The notes under the pieces: model-generated
Database searches by the model: none
Told to the model about the DNA's origin: nothing
The model's input: the letters and a program-made list of their open reading frames with translations, nothing else
Part shown: positions 3,924-16,645 of the stretch, one piece after another
Layout of the letters: every line of letters starts with the position of its first letter
Numbering within the stretch: the stretch's first letter is position 1
NCBI GenBank assembly: GCA_001769835.1
Contig: MEPR01000075.1
Span: forward strand, 1-36,929
DNA length: 36,929 bases
Source of the DNA: Bdellovibrionales bacterium GWB1_55_8
Lineage (GTDB): Bacteria; Bdellovibrionota; UBA1018
Reading direction: 5' to 3'
Translations under genes and position numbers: made by a program

Positions 3924-5927
3924 TTATCGCAGCAGTCCCCTGAATGCGCCCGCATCCGTGGTGCCATACTCAAACAGGAGAATGAGTCGATACTCGTCTT
4001 TTGGATAACTCCGAGGGAGTGTTCCGCGCGGGCCGAGTGCGCGAATCGCGCGCACCGCTTCGCTATCCAGGCTTTTGTCGCCTGAAGACCCTAGTAATTG
4101 AACGTCCTTCGTTTCTCCGTTTCGGCCGAAGGTGATCTCCACGGGCGTTACACCGGTGATTCCCGCGCGGAGCGCTTCTGGTGGGTACTTCCAGATGCTA
4201 TACAGTTCATCGATCACGTGGCGTTGAAAGGATCCGAGAAGAATGTCATCCGGGGTGTAAAAGCTGGCGTGTCCCTGATCTACTTTGGCTTGATAGCGTT
4301 TGCGGTAAGTATCCTCTATTTCGCCTAGTTTTCTGGAGCTCGGGAAAAGATTGATTCCGGTGCCTGTGCCGCTTCCGCCGCGTGATCCAATTCCTTTGGG
4401 CCTGAAGAGCCCGCTGTCCGGCTGCGATTCGGTCGTTGTCACCGCGCTTACCGATGTACTCACGTCTGTGTTCGGTGGCAATGGGTCAGTCGTCGCTGAC
4501 GGACCAGTAGGCTTATCGGTCGCAGGCGTGCGGTGAATGGTTCCCTTTGTCGCTATTTTGTCTGATCTGACTTTGCGGGGAATGAATTTGGTGCGCTTTT
4601 CGTGCTTTGCAGGCGACGGGATATTTTTGGCCACGGTCGGTAGAGCGTCTGGCGGATTTTGGAGGTCCACCATGATGATCTCTTTTTGCTTGGGCTTCGG
4701 CTTGTTTTTCGAAACTGCAACAACTGCAGTCGCTGCTGCGGCGTGCGCGGCAATCGCGGCACCGATCGAAGGAAGAATGCGTTCTTTTTTCCCCAACATT
4801 CGCGCGCGGGACTCCATGTGCATCCGAACTTCAGGCGTGAGGACCGCTTTTGTTGCGTTCCCTGTAAACGCTGGAGCACTGGTGCGAAATCCGCTCGCGA
4901 TGGCGCCGAGCGTCCCGCCGACGGCGGCCCCGACCAATACGTCTTGAATGACCTGCGGTCCCTGTGCCCTCAGTTCTTCGGCAAGCCGGCAGAAGAAGCT
5001 CATTTCAGGTGTTTTATCGGTGATCGCGTGACCGACCATCTTCGCAACCCGAGCGCCGCCCATCACTGCTGCTCCGCTCGCCGCACCGGCTGCGGTCCGG
5101 GACAGGGTAGTGAGAGCGGTCTCGGTGAGAATTTTTTCCATCGAGGAAGCCGCGGCTGCCACTTCGAAGGTCGCAAGCCCGAGCGTTCTGCCCATGGTCA
5201 CCATCGCGATCGCAAACCAACCGGCGCTCAGTATCTCGCCCCTGACCGCCTTGCTCACGTTCATTCCAATCGAAGCGCGTCGAGCCGACACTAGCGCGCG
5301 TCTGCTGTTTTCCTCGTACGTCTTGCTGAGAATCCCGTAGATCCCTTGCTTCAGTTCCCGTTGAAGCCCGGGTTTGACGGAGGTCTTTTTCATCGTTGAA
5401 AAGAGCTCTTCTTTTGCGGATTCCACTGGTTTGAGAAGCTTCTCGCGGCAATCAATTCCGCAGAATATTCCATCTGCGCCCTTGTGATACTGGCTTACTG
5501 CCGTGTTGAATTTCAGATACGATTTTGCGAAAACCGGGTGGTCCTGGAGTGCGGCAGCAATCGTCTCGAATTTTTCTTTTTCAGCATGCGCCATGGCCCA
5601 GGCCAGAGCAGTCGGGCTCAGCTTGGGCTGATACTTAGCGATAAGCGTGGATATCTTGTTTCGTGGCGCCTCCGGCGGCAGCTGTTTGAGTTCGCGGCTG
5701 AGCGCCTGCATCTGTTTCATGTCAGAAGCGTTCGGTTCGCGAAGCGCACACGAGGTGGGCGTTTTCCCGGTGCCAACATCTGTGTGCCGCAAGACTTGCT
5801 CGATATTTTCAAACGGCTTCTGCCCGGGCGAACAGCACTCTGCGGCCAAGCTCAAGTGGACGAACGGCGGTTGGGGGACCGCAAAGACAAGAGTACCCAG
5901 AGTTGCAATGAAGCCGATCCTAGACAC
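3924..5927 (-). CDS. Large secreted/envelope protein with SARRAS-type N-terminal module and TonB C-terminal domain
   Basis: This encodes 667 residues from a GTG start. A signal peptide (about 1-29) is followed by a Cys pair (31-32) and a helical region. SARRASIGM lies at 214-222, followed by hydrophobic or Gly/Ala-rich segments (about 231-255, 275-300, 330-350), FFC at 311-313 and a likely membrane helix at 385-405. Residues 408-540 are a Lys/Pro/Thr-rich linker of the kind that spans the periplasm in TonB proteins. Residues 565-655 match the TonB C-terminal domain (IWKYPPEALRAGITGVTPVE, then a conserved beta-strand and the S-L-D-S-E-A-V-R-A-I helix). The N-terminal 350 residues are paralogous to the protein at 14672-16645. 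No exbB/exbD pair is adjacent. I know of no function for the N-terminal module; the TonB fold suggests contact with an outer-membrane partner. Confidence 0.85.
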   Translation of the reverse strand: MSRIGFIATLGTLVFAVPQPPFVHLSLAAECCSPGQKPFENIEQVLRHTDVGTGKTPTSCALREPNASDMKQMQALSRELKQLPPEAPRNKISTLIAKYQPKLSPTALAWAMAHAEKEKFETIAAALQDHPVFAKSYLKFNTAVSQYHKGADGIFCGIDCREKLLKPVESAKEELFSTMKKTSVKPGLQRELKQGIYGILSKTYEENSRRALVSARRASIGMNVSKAVRGEILSAGWFAIAMVTMGRTLGLATFEVAAAASSMEKILTETALTTLSRTAAGAASGAAVMGGARVAKMVGHAITDKTPEMSFFCRLAEELRAQGPQVIQDVLVGAAVGGTLGAIASGFRTSAPAFTGNATKAVLTPEVRMHMESRARMLGKKERILPSIGAAIAAHAAAATAVVAVSKNKPKPKQKEIIMVDLQNPPDALPTVAKNIPSPAKHEKRTKFIPRKVRSDKIATKGTIHRTPATDKPTGPSATTDPLPPNTDVSTSVSAVTTTESQPDSGLFRPKGIGSRGGSGTGTGINLFPSSRKLGEIEDTYRKRYQAKVDQGHASFYTPDDILLGSFQRHVIDELYSIWKYPPEALRAGITGVTPVEITFGRNGETKDVQLLGSSGDKSLDSEAVRAIRALGPRGTLPRSYPKDEYRLILLFEYGTTDAGAFRGLLR

Positions 5928-10565: not shown

Positions 10566-11972
10566 CTAGCGACCCTTCTGAGACTTCGAAGGCCGTTTTT
10601 TAATCTTCGTCTTGCTCGTCTTTTTGCTGGCGCTTGCAGGGGCACGCTTTGTGTCCGTCTTTTTACCCGCGGCCGCCGTCACTCGCTTCGAAGTATCCTT
10701 CTTGGGCTGTGTCTTGCTCGCTTTCTTGCTCACGCTTGCAGGACTGCGCTTGCGCTCCGGCGGTTGAAGGAAGTCATAATAAGCCTTCAGACCGTAACGT
10801 TTAGCAACATCGATTGCGCGAACGCCGTCCTCGCGTCGGAGTGTCAGGTCGGCCCCTTTTTTCACAAGGTACTGCGCGATCTTTTCATTACGACGATAGG
10901 TCGCCCACATCAGGGGCGTGGCGCCATTCAAGTCGCGGGCGTTGACGTTGGCGCGTTTCTTCACGAGGTATTTCACCATTGCGAGATGACCCTTCGTCGC
11001 CGCAATGTGGAGCGCGGATTTTCCGCGATCGAGCGTCAGGTTGACGTCGACGCTACGGCTTTCCACAAGGCGGCGCGCAAGACCAAGGTCATTGCTTCGC
11101 ACGGCCGAGAAGAACTCCTCCTTCGGCATGGAATCCGCTTGATCCTCACGAGATTCGGCCTCTTCTGCCGTCGATGCCAGGGATCGTGCAGGCATCTGAA
11201 CAGGTTTGGCGGCTATCACCGGAGCTGCTGCGGACGTCGGTGCCGCGAGAGGATACGCTGGCGCCACGCTGACAGGTGGTGCGGCTTCTGCTTTGGCAAG
11301 AGCAGGCGCCTCCTGAATGACTTCAGGCGAAACAGGAGTGGTGCGTGGCCAGACGATCAGCGTCACCAGAACCCCGATCGAGGCGAGCCCACCGGCTGCG
11401 CCGGCGACAAGCCACCATTTCTTCTCTTTTCGCCAGACCTGCCAGACGCTTTCCTCCGTCAGCTCGGGTTTGCCTCTGACTTCGAGTCTGCTCATTCTGG
11501 GTAGCGGGAGATCTTCCATTCTTCTTTGAGGCACCGCCATTCGCAGGATCATCTGCGTGGCGCTGTCTTCGGGGGCAGGGGATTGGACGGAGTCAAGGGT
11601 GTTTCCCTGGGCGGTCGCATTATTGCTATCCGCTGTTTCCTTGTCGACGGCTCCGCTGAGATTCACCATGCGGGTTGCTGCTTCCTCGATCACTGGAAGA
11701 ACAAGGAACTCGATTTTCGCTTTCTCCATCTGGAGAAAATCACCGACTTTCAATTCGAAGCTGCGGCCGGCGTTCCCGTTCAGCGAGAAATCGCTCGCCC
11801 CGTCTTCGGCGATGATGCGTGTTTCGCTTTCACCCAATTCGATGAAGCACCCGGTCTTGAACCCCAGCGCCTCCTCGTTCAGTGAAATATGTGTTCCCGA
11901 GGTGATTCGAAGCGCGACTTTCTCGCGGCGACCACTGTTATGATGAATTCGGATTTTTATTGTTCCTGTCAT
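10566..11972 (-). CDS. Single-pass membrane protein with FHA-like N-terminus, ankyrin repeats and Lys-rich tail
   Basis: This encodes 468 residues. The start at 11972 is chosen for GGGAAG about 7 bases upstream; an in-frame ATG at 12059 would add 29 residues. Residues 1-92 are beta-rich and end like the second half of an FHA domain (SLNGN ... FELKVGDFLQMEKAKIEF), a tentative match. A membrane helix (about 187-208) after the basic WRKEKKWW suggests an N-in topology, followed by an Ala/Pro-rich linker. About three ankyrin repeats follow (about 284-405, e.g. GKSALHIAATKGHLAMVKYL and GATPLMWATYRRNEKIAQYL). The last 65 residues are a Lys/Ser/Thr/Ala tail with two similar units. It is divergent from the MotB-like/MotA-like pair with 146 bases between starts, so a shared promoter region and shared function are likely. 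Confidence 0.8.
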   Translation of the reverse strand: MTGTIKIRIHHNSGRREKVALRITSGTHISLNEEALGFKTGCFIELGESETRIIAEDGASDFSLNGNAGRSFELKVGDFLQMEKAKIEFLVLPVIEEAATRMVNLSGAVDKETADSNNATAQGNTLDSVQSPAPEDSATQMILRMAVPQRRMEDLPLPRMSRLEVRGKPELTEESVWQVWRKEKKWWLVAGAAGGLASIGVLVTLIVWPRTTPVSPEVIQEAPALAKAEAAPPVSVAPAYPLAAPTSAAAPVIAAKPVQMPARSLASTAEEAESREDQADSMPKEEFFSAVRSNDLGLARRLVESRSVDVNLTLDRGKSALHIAATKGHLAMVKYLVKKRANVNARDLNGATPLMWATYRRNEKIAQYLVKKGADLTLRREDGVRAIDVAKRYGLKAYYDFLQPPERKRSPASVSKKASKTQPKKDTSKRVTAAAGKKTDTKRAPASASKKTSKTKIKKRPSKSQKGR

Positions 11973-12118
11973 ATTGATTCTTCCCAACATTCGATCGGTT
12001 TTTTGATCCGTAAGCCTGAGCGGTATGCGCGAATTTTGCGGCAACTGAACTGAAAACATTGAGATTCAACCGATTTAGTTCATTCAGATGTTGGCGAAAA
12101 CTGTCGATGTAAGGGTGC

Positions 12119-13798
12119 ATGAATCTGAACTACGACAGGATCAAGAGCCGGGTCGAGCAGGGAAGTCACCAGTGGACCTCCTACAGCGACCTCTTTCTGG
12201 TGTTATCGGTCACATTCCTTCTTCTTTATGTTGTCGCGAATTTAAGAAGTGGAACCTCATCCATCGTGCAGTCGCAGGCATTGCAGGCAGCTCGAACAGA
12301 GGTATCGGAACTCCAGAAGCAACTCAAGACGTATGAGGTTCTCAAAGACGACTATCTCCAGAAGGGCCCGTCGAAAGATGAAGTCGCCATCTATCAGGAG
12401 CTGATGGACAAGCTGACGCTCCTTGAAACCGAGGCGAAAAGCGAGCATGAGCAGGCACTGAAGAAAGCGCGTGCCGCGAAATCACGTGAGGATGGTTTGA
12501 ATCATTACCAGCAGCTCGTCAAGAACATCGTTAATGCGAACCTGATCGCGTCGGGACGACTCCAGAACAAGAACGAAGTGATTCAGGAACAGACGCGCGA
12601 ACTTGACGTCCTCGATAACGAAGTCAATCAGAAGACGAAAACGATCGAGCAGAACAACGCGCAGATCGCGACGATTGAAAGCGAACTCAAAGCGAAGGCG
12701 GAACGACTTAAAACGGCTTATCGCACCAGTAAGAAGAATCGGGCTTTGTACGAAAAGGAGCTTCGGGAACTCGAGAACGAAAGCGGCAAGAGGATCGCCA
12801 CTCTTCGTGATGCCAATAACCAGTTCGCGAAACAACTGGATGAAACGAAGACCCGGCTGGACGAGAAGAATCGCCAGGCTGAGAAACTGGTTGCCGAACT
12901 GAGCGCCAGGCAGACGCAATTTGAATCGCAGATGACTGCTATCACTGCGACGCACGAGACATCTCTTTCCGAGCAGAAGCGGCAGTTTGATGAGGCGCTG
13001 CGTGATGCGAAGCTGAGTGCGCAGGCACGAGTGGAGAAGGAGCGCGAATACCGGGCAGCGGTCGAAAGTCGCAACGCGAAGTTCAAGGCGGAGATGGATG
13101 CGCTCAATGGCGATCTTGCGCATACGCGAAGCGCACTTAAGAATGCGAGTGGCAAGTACCAGGAGTCCATTGCCGCACTTCAGAAGACGAATCAGACTCT
13201 CGAGCAGGATCTCAAGACAAGTATCACGAAGTTAAATGAACAGCGCCGCCTCGCCGAACAGATAAAGAAGAACTTCAGCAAATCCGGGATACAGGCCCAG
13301 GTCGATCCGAAGAGCGGGGATGTCACCATCGAATTCCAGCCGGAGTACTTCGATACCGATAGCTCCGCGCTCAAGGGAAATATGCGGCGCATTCTCGAAA
13401 AGACGATTCCCGTTTACGCGAAGAGTCTGTTTGAGGACGGAAAAATATCAAAACGCATCAGCTCAGTCGAGATCGTCGGCTTTGCTTCTCCGACCTTTCA
13501 GGGCAAAGTCGTCGATCCGGGCAGCCTTTCGGCCGGTGATCGCCAGGCCGTCAACTACAACATGGACCTGAGTTATCGACGAGCCAAATCCATTTTTGAA
13601 TTCGTATTCGATCCGAACCGTCTGAATTTCGAGCATCAGAAAGCACTGCTTCCGCTCGTGAAGGTGTCAGGGCGGAGTTATCTCGGCGCGGAACCCCTGA
13701 AGGAGCGGGGCCTCGCATCGCGGGATGACTACTGCAGCCGGTATGACTGCAGAAAGAGTCAGATGGTGATCATCAAGTTCAATCTGAAAGAGCAATAG
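12119..13798 (+). CDS. MotB-like protein: channel helix, very long coiled coil, OmpA-like peptidoglycan-binding domain
   Basis: This encodes 559 residues. A short N-terminal cytoplasmic segment leads to one membrane helix (about 22-41). Its SYSDLFLVLSVTFLLL places Asp24 where MotB and ZorB carry the proton-binding aspartate. Residues 50-385 are almost continuous coiled coil (heptads rich in Glu, Lys, Gln, Ala). Residues 395-557 resemble an OmpA/MotB peptidoglycan-binding domain: VTIEFQPEYFDTDSSAL, then SVEIVGFASP and the N-x-x-L-S-x-x-R-A helix at 480-489. Two cysteines near the C-terminus (DYCSRYDC) could form a disulfide. MotB itself lacks the 335-residue coil. The gene precedes the MotA-like gene by 9 bases, so they form a stator-like pair. 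Flagellar genes are absent, which argues against flagellar use. Confidence 0.85.
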   Translation: MNLNYDRIKSRVEQGSHQWTSYSDLFLVLSVTFLLLYVVANLRSGTSSIVQSQALQAARTEVSELQKQLKTYEVLKDDYLQKGPSKDEVAIYQELMDKLTLLETEAKSEHEQALKKARAAKSREDGLNHYQQLVKNIVNANLIASGRLQNKNEVIQEQTRELDVLDNEVNQKTKTIEQNNAQIATIESELKAKAERLKTAYRTSKKNRALYEKELRELENESGKRIATLRDANNQFAKQLDETKTRLDEKNRQAEKLVAELSARQTQFESQMTAITATHETSLSEQKRQFDEALRDAKLSAQARVEKEREYRAAVESRNAKFKAEMDALNGDLAHTRSALKNASGKYQESIAALQKTNQTLEQDLKTSITKLNEQRRLAEQIKKNFSKSGIQAQVDPKSGDVTIEFQPEYFDTDSSALKGNMRRILEKTIPVYAKSLFEDGKISKRISSVEIVGFASPTFQGKVVDPGSLSAGDRQAVNYNMDLSYRRAKSIFEFVFDPNRLNFEHQKALLPLVKVSGRSYLGAEPLKERGLASRDDYCSRYDCRKSQMVIIKFNLKEQ

Positions 13799-13807
13799 GA
13801 GAAGGCG

Positions 13808-14656
13808 ATGTTAGACCAATTTATCTTGGCCCATGTGGTGGATGCAATGTCGGCGGTCGTGATGCCGCTGATGCTGTTCGCTTTCTTCGGAGGCCTGCTG
13901 GCGCGAGCTTTGATTTACTATACGGCGCGAAGCGAGGCGAGATTCGCGCTCGAGTTTGAGAAGCGGGTCAGAGTGTATCTGATGGCGACGGACGCGCCCC
14001 GGGTGGCCTCTTTTTATCGAATCACCCGGATCCTTCTTGAGAAGACTTTCATTGAGTGTTTCGAAATGCGGGACAAGTTCAAACGCCGCAACCTGGACGC
14101 TGTCTGGAGCCTGACGGACCGACTTTTCCTGATTCAGGACGGCTCTCGTCGGCTCATTGAAGACACCCTTCGAAGTATTCGGTATTTTCGTCGCGAAGGC
14201 ATGCCGCCGAAGATGGTGGAAACCGCCAAATCGTCATTTGAGAGTAATCCTTACTTCAATCGGGTGCTCGGTATCGTTCCGGTCGCATTTCTTCATGAGC
14301 TGTTGAACATCCTACCGGGGATGTTCCTGATCGGCGGTATTCTGGGAACTTTCCTCGGAATTTCAAAAGGCTTGCCTGAACTAGGCGGTATGGACCTCGG
14401 GAATGTCGATGAAACCAAACGCGTCATGGATGCCTTCCTGATGACGATATCGCATGCCATGCTGAAATCGATCGTCGGTATCGCGTTCTCGGCCGCGATG
14501 ACTCTCATCAACACGATGTTTTCGGTCGAGGGCCTCTATTATTCGCTCGTGAATCGATATTCGAACGCGCTCGATTACCTTTGGAACGAGACAACGACCA
14601 ACGAAGTGGACGCTGTCGAACGCACGCCAGCAGCCCCGCCCAAGAAAGCGGCGTGA
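13808..14656 (+). CDS. MotA/ExbB/TolQ-like proton-channel protein
   Basis: This 282-residue inner-membrane protein has three predicted helices (about 13-37, 167-190 and 217-245) and a cytoplasmic helical domain between the first and second. The segment PGMFLIGGILGTFLGISKGL followed by the third helix matches the MotA/TolQ/ExbB channel core, in which pentamers surround two copies of the MotB/TolR/ExbD-type helix. GGAGAAGG lies immediately upstream of the ATG. Three helices and the compact cytoplasmic domain are closer to ExbB/TolQ/ZorA than to four-helix MotA. The partner is the preceding MotB-like protein. The reversed order (B-like gene first) and the long coil on the B-like subunit differ from Zorya, flagellar and Tol-Pal arrangements. 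The C-terminus is Ala/Pro/Lys-rich. Confidence 0.85.
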   Translation: MLDQFILAHVVDAMSAVVMPLMLFAFFGGLLARALIYYTARSEARFALEFEKRVRVYLMATDAPRVASFYRITRILLEKTFIECFEMRDKFKRRNLDAVWSLTDRLFLIQDGSRRLIEDTLRSIRYFRREGMPPKMVETAKSSFESNPYFNRVLGIVPVAFLHELLNILPGMFLIGGILGTFLGISKGLPELGGMDLGNVDETKRVMDAFLMTISHAMLKSIVGIAFSAAMTLINTMFSVEGLYYSLVNRYSNALDYLWNETTTNEVDAVERTPAAPPKKAA

Positions 14657-14671
14657 GAGTTTCTCGACAGG

Positions 14672-16645
14672 TCACTCCGGCGTTGCAACCTGCATTCGGC
14701 CATCGTCACCGATGATGACCCGGGCCGCTGCAAGCACCGCATCACTGCCCGGAGAGCCGCCAGAACCTGCGGGGGCATTGAAATCCGCTGAGACCACATT
14801 CGAAAATCCGCTTTCCATCTCATTCAAGTAAGCGGTCGCAGCGAAGTAATACGTCCCCGCGCCAAGGCCGGTCACCTCCGCCTCGAGCTGGTTCCCTACG
14901 TCGATGGAATTCGTGTAAAGTCCGGGCGTCGTCCCCCAATAAATCTTGTATCCACTCACGGACATCTCGACTTTGTTCTCATCAACTGGCGGATTCCATC
15001 CTAGGCGTACGCCACAAGAGTTTGTTTGCGTGCAGGAGGAACTGCTGGACGTATCCGGTGCCGGATCCCCGCCTGTTTCGCCTCCTCCGCCACCACTTCC
15101 GCAACCGGAGAGCGTCGACAACGCACCGAAAGACAATAGGCCCAGCCCTGCATACATTGATAGATTTGCGTTTTGCCCAAGATCGAAACTCGGGAGAAGA
15201 GGCGCTCTCTTCGGCTGCAGTGCCCACTTTGAAGCAGGCTTCAATGGACAGACGTCGGGGTTGGCTCGCGACTTGGCGATCGGCAGTGGGTTCGGCGTCA
15301 CTTTTGCCGCAGCTTTCGCTGGAACCGCCGGTGCCTTCTTCTGGCCAATCTTCGATGTCTTGCGGACACTTACACCAAGCCCTTTGGACACCCTCATTCC
15401 TGCCACGGAGCCGCTCAGTGCCAGCAGAGTTCCCAGGCTGTTCGCGGCAGTATCCACTCTCGCATGTTTCGCACGGTTCTCTAAGTCAACAGCTGCTGCC
15501 AGATTGCCTTTCTTGCGCGCGTCTTGCGCTTGCTTGTCGAGTTCCCTGGCATCTTGATGTGATTTTATCGCCGCTTCGCCTGAGCCCCATGCGAAGACCC
15601 CGGTTGTGCCGGTGGCGAGCACTTTTGCGGCGGTTGCGTTGATCATTGCTGCCCCCGCTACTCCGCCTCCGAGGCCGCCTCCGATGATCGCACCGGTCAG
15701 CGCGCGATTCAGGACTTCTCGGCCATGACTGTTCATCTGGTCGCCCAGCTTACAGAAAAAATCGCGTCCTTCTTCGTTTTGGGTGGCCGCGTAACCAGCT
15801 ATTCGTCCGAGTCCATCAATTCCAGCCAGCCCCATGCCGCCTGCGGCGGAGGCCGCCGAGGTCATGGCGATTTTCGCCGCAGCTCCAGTCACTGCACCTG
15901 CAGGAGTGAAAAGCCCCAGGTAAGAAAGAAAAACAAGATCCACAGAAAGTATCGAGCTCGTCAGGAACATCCCGACGGAGGCGCGTCGTGCGCTTTCCTC
16001 CGCTCGTTTGCTCGCATTCTGGTAAACCTGTGAAAGGACGCTGTACATGTTTTTCGTGAGGATCCTTTTGGAATCCGAGTCGAGCTTCGCGGTTGCGATG
16101 GTCTTCTTCAGGTCGGTGACTGCCCGGTCCAGTTTTCGGTCATCTTCCTTTATTCCGACAACGCCTCCGAACATCCGATTGCGGTTGTTTGTGTATTCGG
16201 CGGAAGCTTTGTCGAAAGTAGATAGTGATCGAGTGAGTCCGGGATTCGCCTTCAGGCCTTTTTGGATGATTCCGACCTGTACCCGTGCGGCTTCCCCCAG
16301 AATGGCACCAATCGCGGTGGAGCTGAGTTTCTTCTCATGTGAGGCGACTATTTTTGAAACAGCGCGGGAACGCTCTGCTCCCGTTTTTGACTTTTTCGAT
16401 GCGGCAAGAAGTTCCGTGCGCGTCCTCTTGAGTTGTGCTCTGTCAGATTGAGTTAATTCTCGTCCGCAGCTGGACCAGGTGCTTTCGACAGCAACTTGGG
16501 TCGCCTGAATCAGGCTGGCAAGCGCGGAAGTGTTCTCCTGACAGAGCTGGCAATCAGTTCCGAAACCGGGAGTTCCCAAAGAGAAGGATATTCCCACCAG
16601 GACGAGCTTGACGGCACGAACACAAAGATCTGTGCGGTTACCCAT
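14672..16645 (-). CDS. Large secreted protein with SARRAS-type N-terminal module, internal lipobox and FN3 domain
   Basis: This encodes 657 residues. The start has GGGGGA upstream and a signal peptide (about 10-30). The N-terminal module parallels the TonB-ended protein at 3924-5927: a Cys pair (32, 35), LSSTAIG, F-D-K-A-S-A-E-Y (144-151), YSVLSQVYQNASKRAEESAR, SARRASVGM (218-226), FFC (296-298), and a Gly-rich hydrophobic stretch (316-335). A short helical section (about 360-395) follows. Residues 495-515 then form a hydrophobic segment ending in the lipobox-like LSGC (C515), followed by Gly/Ser-rich residues, as if a lipoprotein signal had been captured inside the protein. Residues 545-622 are a fibronectin type III domain (GYKIYWGTTPGLYTNS ... 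GTYYFAATAY). It is convergent with the MotA-like gene, 15 bases apart. Its function is unknown. Confidence 0.85.
   Translation of the reverse strand: MGNRTDLCVRAVKLVLVGISFSLGTPGFGTDCQLCQENTSALASLIQATQVAVESTWSSCGRELTQSDRAQLKRTRTELLAASKKSKTGAERSRAVSKIVASHEKKLSSTAIGAILGEAARVQVGIIQKGLKANPGLTRSLSTFDKASAEYTNNRNRMFGGVVGIKEDDRKLDRAVTDLKKTIATAKLDSDSKRILTKNMYSVLSQVYQNASKRAEESARRASVGMFLTSSILSVDLVFLSYLGLFTPAGAVTGAAAKIAMTSAASAAGGMGLAGIDGLGRIAGYAATQNEEGRDFFCKLGDQMNSHGREVLNRALTGAIIGGGLGGGVAGAAMINATAAKVLATGTTGVFAWGSGEAAIKSHQDARELDKQAQDARKKGNLAAAVDLENRAKHARVDTAANSLGTLLALSGSVAGMRVSKGLGVSVRKTSKIGQKKAPAVPAKAAAKVTPNPLPIAKSRANPDVCPLKPASKWALQPKRAPLLPSFDLGQNANLSMYAGLGLLSFGALSTLSGCGSGGGGGETGGDPAPDTSSSSSCTQTNSCGVRLGWNPPVDENKVEMSVSGYKIYWGTTPGLYTNSIDVGNQLEAEVTGLGAGTYYFAATAYLNEMESGFSNVVSADFNAPAGSGGSPGSDAVLAAARVIIGDDGRMQVATPE

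Follow-up and report, generated by a model that had tools for sequence, protein, structure and literature searches.

A predicted ZorAB-side stator pair of Bdellovibrionota and its candidate FHA-like/ankyrin membrane partner

Bacteria use ion-driven stators to swim and glide, to take up nutrients, to constrict the outer membrane and, in one system, to defend themselves against phages. For Zorya defence, both the peptidoglycan-binding domain of ZorB and the long cytoplasmic tail of ZorA are required (PMC11890865). A two-hybrid assay showed that GltG, an FHA/TM/TonB-like protein of the Myxococcus gliding machinery, binds AglR, one of its stator subunits (PMC3169522), and this binding provides a precedent for an FHA protein with a transmembrane (TM) helix acting beside a stator. 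Here we describe a pair of stator-like genes from Bdellovibrionales bacterium GWB1_55_8, which appears to represent a further stator branch, nearest to the defence stators, devoid of their defence parts and common in Bdellovibrionota, together with the ankyrin membrane protein encoded next to it.

The window, i.e. the whole analysed stretch of 36,929 nucleotides (contig MEPR01000075.1), contains the three open reading frames of the original prediction exactly where it had placed them. The ankyrin ORF (10566-12059, minus strand, 497 AA) opens at 12059, but its homologues begin at about the equivalent of Met30, and the start is therefore probably at 11972, giving a gene of 10566..11972. With this start a divergent intergenic region of 146 bases (11973..12118) separates the ankyrin gene from the B subunit gene (12119..13798, plus strand, 559 AA), in agreement with the distance quoted originally. 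A scan of this region for sigma-70-like promoters gave no match above chance. The A subunit gene (13808..14656, plus strand, 282 AA) begins 9 bases past the B stop, so B and A probably form one operon. The linkage of the ankyrin gene with the pair, on which the original prediction depended, recurs in at least eight other genomes. As had also been predicted, no flagellar, Tol-Pal or gliding genes were found among the flanking genes examined with Pfam, and Glt-type genes were likewise absent from this set. Two paralogous proteins of unassigned family flank the region (3924-5927 and 14672-16645, both on the minus strand; 26% identity over 305 AA, E 3e-25); the latter, located immediately past the A gene, was searched against Pfam, PADLOC and NCBIfam with no significant match. 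Elsewhere in the same genome, a FliG_C match was seen in a 789-AA frame near a MotA_ExbB gene (G000:C11:37992-39560, L221).

The B subunit had been described as a MotB-like protein with a channel aspartate. This residue, Asp24 (codon 12188..12190, plus strand), lies in the TM helix and is invariant in the sequences of 30 relatives. Alignment of relatives revealed a family-specific conserved juxtamembrane segment (residues 65-141; 12311..12541, plus strand) with the consensus ..LNxYQQMVRNIINAN. A long coiled coil leads to the C-terminal ZorB/OmpA-like, predicted peptidoglycan-binding domain (residues 390-559; 13286..13795, plus strand) with the invariant cysteines C539 and C544. The OmpA-like domain assigned originally was right in kind: a Pfam scan of B gave nothing useful and the OmpA model was silent, but the PADLOC ZorB1 model matched at 2.6e-29, and the fold search with the AF2 model gave ZorB (8vvn_A, E 1.1e-5) as the best match and the only one with E < 0.001. 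A profile search of the PDB also finds ZorB; the remaining matches of this profile were rejected as coiled-coil noise. The helical region of B spans about 250-600 residues in the family. In the AF2 monomer of the window protein, which is of moderate confidence (pLDDT 71.8, pTM 0.42), it is broken up into helices (about 118, 89 and 88 residues), and some of the weak fold matches are three-helix bundles. Because of these breaks and matches, a folded bundle may describe the coiled coil better than a straight rod does, a reading that we hold with moderate confidence.

For the A subunit, originally described as a three-helix MotA/ExbB-like protein, three TM segments were shown in close relatives. 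The Pfam MotA_ExbB model matched A at only 0.41 and the PADLOC ZorA1 model at 8.4e-8. The core motif LPG.F..GGI.GTF.GI (residues 169-185; 14312..14362, plus strand) is common to ZorA (LPGILTGLGIIGTFSGL), and its GTF element carries the invariant Thr181. It is absent from the Mot/Tol/Exb paralogs of the window's own genome, which have xxxAPxIGLFGTVxGI or a similar core. A PDB search with a profile of 15 A sequences retrieved ZorA and no other stator chain, even when E values up to 10 were allowed. In a reference tree with eleven Mot/Tol/Exb paralogs from the window genome and two ZorA sequences, the family and ZorA were split from the Mot/Tol/Exb side with support of 99/97; because of the long branches, the tree does not settle the exact relation to ZorA. 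The NCBIfam Zor models match the pair far below their curated cut-offs. As judged from sequence, the pair is a stator of the ZorAB side, distant from Zorya proper, and not a flagellar MotAB, TolQR or ExbBD. The non-flagellar, stator-like character proposed originally is thus borne out by the tree split, which keeps the pair apart from flagellar stators and TolQR. The accompanying comparison with Zorya stood in so far as the locus is not Zorya, with ZorC/D/E missing and the gene order reversed, but it missed that ZorA/ZorB are the closest known relatives of the pair.

To place the pair within its family, we looked at its distribution and neighbours. A scan of the genome collection returned 132 encoding stretches, and the best 80 of the 132 come mostly from Bdellovibrionota and a gammaproteobacterial branch. 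An even sample of Bdellovibrionota gave matches in 119 of 241 genomes; about 96 of the 119 are of the close type (~40% of the 241 genomes), and most of the others are linked to cyclic-nucleotide-binding (cNMP) proteins. The usual operon, seen at about 70 loci, consists of B, A and then a gene for a protein with an FHA domain, a long coiled coil, a TM segment and a conserved C-terminal domain. This FHA partner has roughly 470-1440 AA. Its FHA domain is N-terminal, with Pfam values of 1e-11 to 3e-17 among the proteins scanned, and usually a single TM helix is predicted some 170-190 residues before the C-terminus; the conserved C-terminal domain is predicted to be periplasmic. More distant B-A pairs are followed at seven loci by a small cNMP-binding-domain protein. 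Such cNMP-type loci (L071:8356-8823, L072:1930-2376, L209-L214) bring in a third kind of partner. In the gammaproteobacterial pairs B has roughly 520-970 AA and no partner gene was recognised among the neighbours; since these pairs seem to be without one, a partner is probably not always needed.

Within one genus, probably Bdellovibrio, 19 of the 22 good genomes have one copy of the family and the other three have none. Its member G111, probably B. bacteriovorus HD100, a tractable laboratory strain, has the FHA type in a single operon of three genes (L196:6725-11617) between smc-like and ftsY-like genes, named by sequence reading; the operon may have a role in predation, gliding or envelope integrity. 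A plasmid search gave no match to the pair, and a search of viral contigs gave only two weak ones (28% identity). Two contigs, labelled Thioalkalivibrio (L098) and Streptomyces (L147), look like mis-binned Bdellovibrionota contigs, and the A and B rows of L098 are identical to those of L100, a Bdellovibrionales MAG. Our search of the open-access literature gave no paper in which Zorya is mentioned together with FHA, or together with ankyrin and MotA. The pair appears to belong to a conserved, single-copy, apparently undescribed stator family of predatory and related bacteria.

An ankyrin protein is encoded near the pair in at least nine genomes (the window, G002, G003, G006, G025, G030, the L079 and L081 MAGs, and G220), and at the intact loci its gene is adjacent and divergent. 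In G030 (L057/L075, UBA1018) the ankyrin gene lies a few kilobases from the pair; there the B and ankyrin genes are broken by stops or split and A is intact, which reflects either decay or assembly error. In an A+B tree built by a quick method, the nine ankyrin-type loci fall on one side of a branch with SH-aLRT 99, beside the FHA-linked group, and they span two taxonomic families, so the ankyrin type in all likelihood has a single origin. A search for the C-terminal domain of the FHA partner found it in none of the eight ankyrin-group genomes covered, and it was present in the four control genomes that matched. Both partners share an FHA/linker/TM/C-terminal-module plan with different linkers and end modules. 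Since the larger family normally has as partner a canonical FHA/coiled-coil/TM protein, the product of a gene in the B-A operon, the ankyrin protein is best seen as a lineage-specific replacement of this partner and not as a defining part of the family. The proposal that the ankyrin protein is a partner of the pair gains from the conserved divergent linkage; it had, however, missed the normal partner of the family, and the ankyrin protein is only a lineage-specific one.

The ankyrin repeats (residues 312-432; 10764..11126, minus strand), already recognised in the original prediction, were confirmed by Pfam (Ank_4, 1.8e-21), AF2 and fold search. By charge count, they are followed by a strongly basic C-terminal tail (10569..10763, minus strand) with a net charge of +16 over the last 45 residues; the values among relatives range from +9 to +16, and the tail is strongly basic in all. 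The FHA-like domain was originally a guess, and the Pfam scan of the protein saw no FHA domain, but in the AF2 model residues 31-120 of the 497-AA ORF (11700..11969, minus strand) form a confident all-beta domain (block pLDDT 75-90). Moreover, a profile-profile comparison limited to this domain and the canonical FHA domain of the relatives' partner gave a probability of 84% and a score of 35.9, against a mean of 11.4 (SD 2.3, maximum 22.6) in 100 column shuffles. With the ankyrin protein and the FHA partner compared by hhalign over their full length, only 1% was reached, and the signal appears on limiting the comparison to the domains; in the fold search of the whole protein the top 50 were all ankyrin structures, which filled the list ahead of the FHA-like fold. 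The domain seems degenerate, as it is devoid of the phosphothreonine-site motif GR..S..H..NG: the GR/SxxH/NG phosphopeptide-site pattern was found in 0/8 ankyrin-type proteins vs. 37/51 FHA-type proteins searched with the same pattern. Modelling and profile comparison thus point to a diverged FHA domain, homologous to that of the partner.

A single TM helix is predicted at residues 218-236 (11352..11408, minus strand), K/R-rich on the FHA side. In all eight ankyrin-type proteins examined K/R residues are richer on this side of the membrane segments, and the TM counts are 1, 3 or 5, with one protein scoring 4 at the threshold and its close relative 5. Charges and counts are consistent with a cytoplasmic FHA-like domain and a periplasmic ankyrin domain. 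Two T-x-x-V/I motifs in the FHA-TM linker (T129 and T168 of the ORF) recur in most relatives and resemble FHA ligand motifs; such linker motifs exceed the shuffled expectation in most members, which we treat as a lead only.

The cytoplasmic tail of A varies together with the kind of partner. In the window it has about 24 residues (259-282; 14582..14653, plus strand; median of 31 in the ankyrin type), is without the F-D-E-x-R-D-P-x-E-A-L-A motif and ends in KAA. Past the last TM helix, this motif (consensus FDExRDPxEALAE) is present in 67 of 69 FHA-linked A subunits and in none of the ankyrin-linked (0/9), cNMP-linked (0/7) or gammaproteobacterial (0/16) ones; the pattern was relaxed after inspection of the tails, and its earlier, stricter form matched 54/70 FHA-linked subunits and none of the others. 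The co-variation is suggestive and does not amount to independent replication, as with a single origin of the ankyrin clade the tail loss and the partner swap count as one evolutionary event each. The distribution fits, again suggestively, a docking of the FHA partner on the tail of A. A conserved small-residue end (KAA, KAS) was seen in 7/9 ankyrin-linked, 56/70 FHA-linked, 5/7 cNMP-linked and 1/16 gammaproteobacterial A subunits, with the window copy at 14645-14653. It persists even past unrelated low-complexity linkers and could be a binding or degradation signal.

We consider it probable, with considerable room for doubt, that the locus encodes a ZorAB/MotAB-type stator with the divergent FHA-like/TM/ankyrin protein as its dedicated, replacing membrane partner. 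B and A would form an inner-membrane stator of five A and two B subunits, by homology, in which ions may pass along a path lined by Asp24 of B and Thr181 of A. The A ring would rotate relative to B, and force would cross the long periplasmic helical stalk to the peptidoglycan-binding domain. The FHA-like head would lie in the cytoplasm by the A ring, with the TM helix beside the motor and presumably in contact with it, and the ankyrin domain and basic tail would act in the periplasm, either receiving the motor's force or gating the motor. In this role the ankyrin protein would take the place of the FHA/coiled-coil/TM protein, the third operon gene in the rest of the family, and the output would most likely be envelope or cell-surface work under signal control. 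The sensor or mechanical device suggested originally would likewise be a putative role. The divergent position of the ankyrin gene, outside the operon and unlike that of the FHA gene, counts against such a dedicated partner.

The pair could also drive movement of Bdellovibrionota on surfaces or during predation (gliding, prey entry), the FHA or ankyrin protein being a GltG-like force transducer. We regard this as unlikely, albeit with several points in its favour: the distribution is phylum-wide with conservation in a probable predator genus, the architecture parallels AglRQS-GltG (PMC3169522), and PMC13104615 describes the motor of Bdellovibrio gliding as unidentified and a major open challenge. 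Yet true Agl/Glt clusters also occur in Bdellovibrio (PMC3169522), no gliding genes lie near the window pair, and the relatives in Gammaproteobacteria and the three good genus genomes without the pair argue for a dispensable or more general role.

Somewhat less credible is a Zorya-type anti-phage defence with the FHA or ankyrin protein as effector. Its attraction is that A and B are nearest to ZorA/ZorB in the PADLOC, PDB sequence and fold searches, and that ankyrin proteins are present in other PADLOC defence systems. However, ZorC, ZorD and ZorE are absent beside the window pair, the neighbours in relatives being FHA, ankyrin, cNMP-binding or unrelated proteins; ten other window genes gave no PADLOC match, the long ZorA tail is missing and the gene order is reversed. 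Its retention as a single copy by most of the good genomes in one genus (at the locus examined, between smc and ftsY) and the outcome of the plasmid and viral-contig searches, with no match and two weak ones, respectively, also speak against defence. In addition, G202 carries a ZorA-ZorB-ZorC-ZorD-like locus (ZorA by model, the others by gene size and order) together with FHA-type and cNMP-type A subunits, typed by match strength, and this coexistence indicates that Zorya and the window family are distinct systems.

It is similarly improbable that the ankyrin gene has no functional tie to the stator and is a mere neighbour with a shared divergent promoter region. The gene is indeed divergent and not co-operonic, and ankyrin genes are abundant in these genomes, but proteins of this particular FHA-like/TM/ankyrin architecture were seen nowhere but next to the pair, across two taxonomic families and in the one clade devoid of the FHA partner, and their FHA-like domain appears homologous to that of the partner. 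An accessory flagellar stator, suggested by the Asp-containing MotB-like helix of B and by FliG elsewhere in the genome, is highly improbable given the three TM segments of A without a MotA-type core motif, the 99/97 split from the genome's own Mot/Tol/Exb paralogs and the poor Pfam MotA_ExbB match.

Returning to the stator with a replaced membrane partner, the observed family membership, conserved linkage and partner replacement, with the FHA-specific A-tail motif absent where the partner is replaced, are read by us as a modular stator with interchangeable membrane partners that would couple cytoplasm, motor and envelope. The docking of accessory proteins on a stator ring could then be studied through the partner swap as a natural experiment. 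More tentatively, and short of an even chance in our estimate, the family could be a phylum-wide, chromosomally conserved, signal-gated envelope motor, in which exchangeable FHA, FHA-like/ankyrin and cNMP-binding partners plug onto the A-ring tail of a ZorAB-lineage stator, a chromosomal non-defence relative from or beside which Zorya arose. If true, such a motor would couple signalling by phosphorylation or nucleotides to mechanical work that ions drive at the peptidoglycan.

Compared with the known systems, the family resembles Zorya types I and II most closely, as ZorA/ZorB are its best matches in all three kinds of search and share the A core LPG..GI.GTF.G and the C-terminal ZorB/OmpA-like domain of B; type I ZorB also has a TM Asp at position 24 near the N-terminus. 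It differs from Zorya in the order B-A vs. A-B, in the absence of the long cytoplasmic ZorA tail, with a very long coiled coil in B instead, and in having FHA, ankyrin or cNMP-binding proteins vs. ZorC/D/E as partners. With flagellar MotAB/PomAB the pair would share, by homology, the general A5B2 stator logic, and it has in common with them the TM Asp and a predicted peptidoglycan-binding domain, but A has 3 TM segments vs. 4, the clade is separate and no flagellar genes are nearby. TolQR/ExbBD likewise combine a 3-TM A subunit with a single-TM B subunit, yet they form a separate clade, the B of the window family is large, with a coiled coil and an OmpA-like domain, and no TolA/TonB partner was identified for the window pair. 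The Agl-Glt system of Myxococcus xanthus (AglRQS and GltG) offers the same combination of a stator with a protein of cytoplasmic FHA, TM and periplasmic domains (PMC3169522); AglRQS, however, is TolQR-like and GltG ends in a TonB-like domain, whereas the stator of the window family is ZorAB-like and the end module of its partner is a conserved helical domain or ankyrin repeats.
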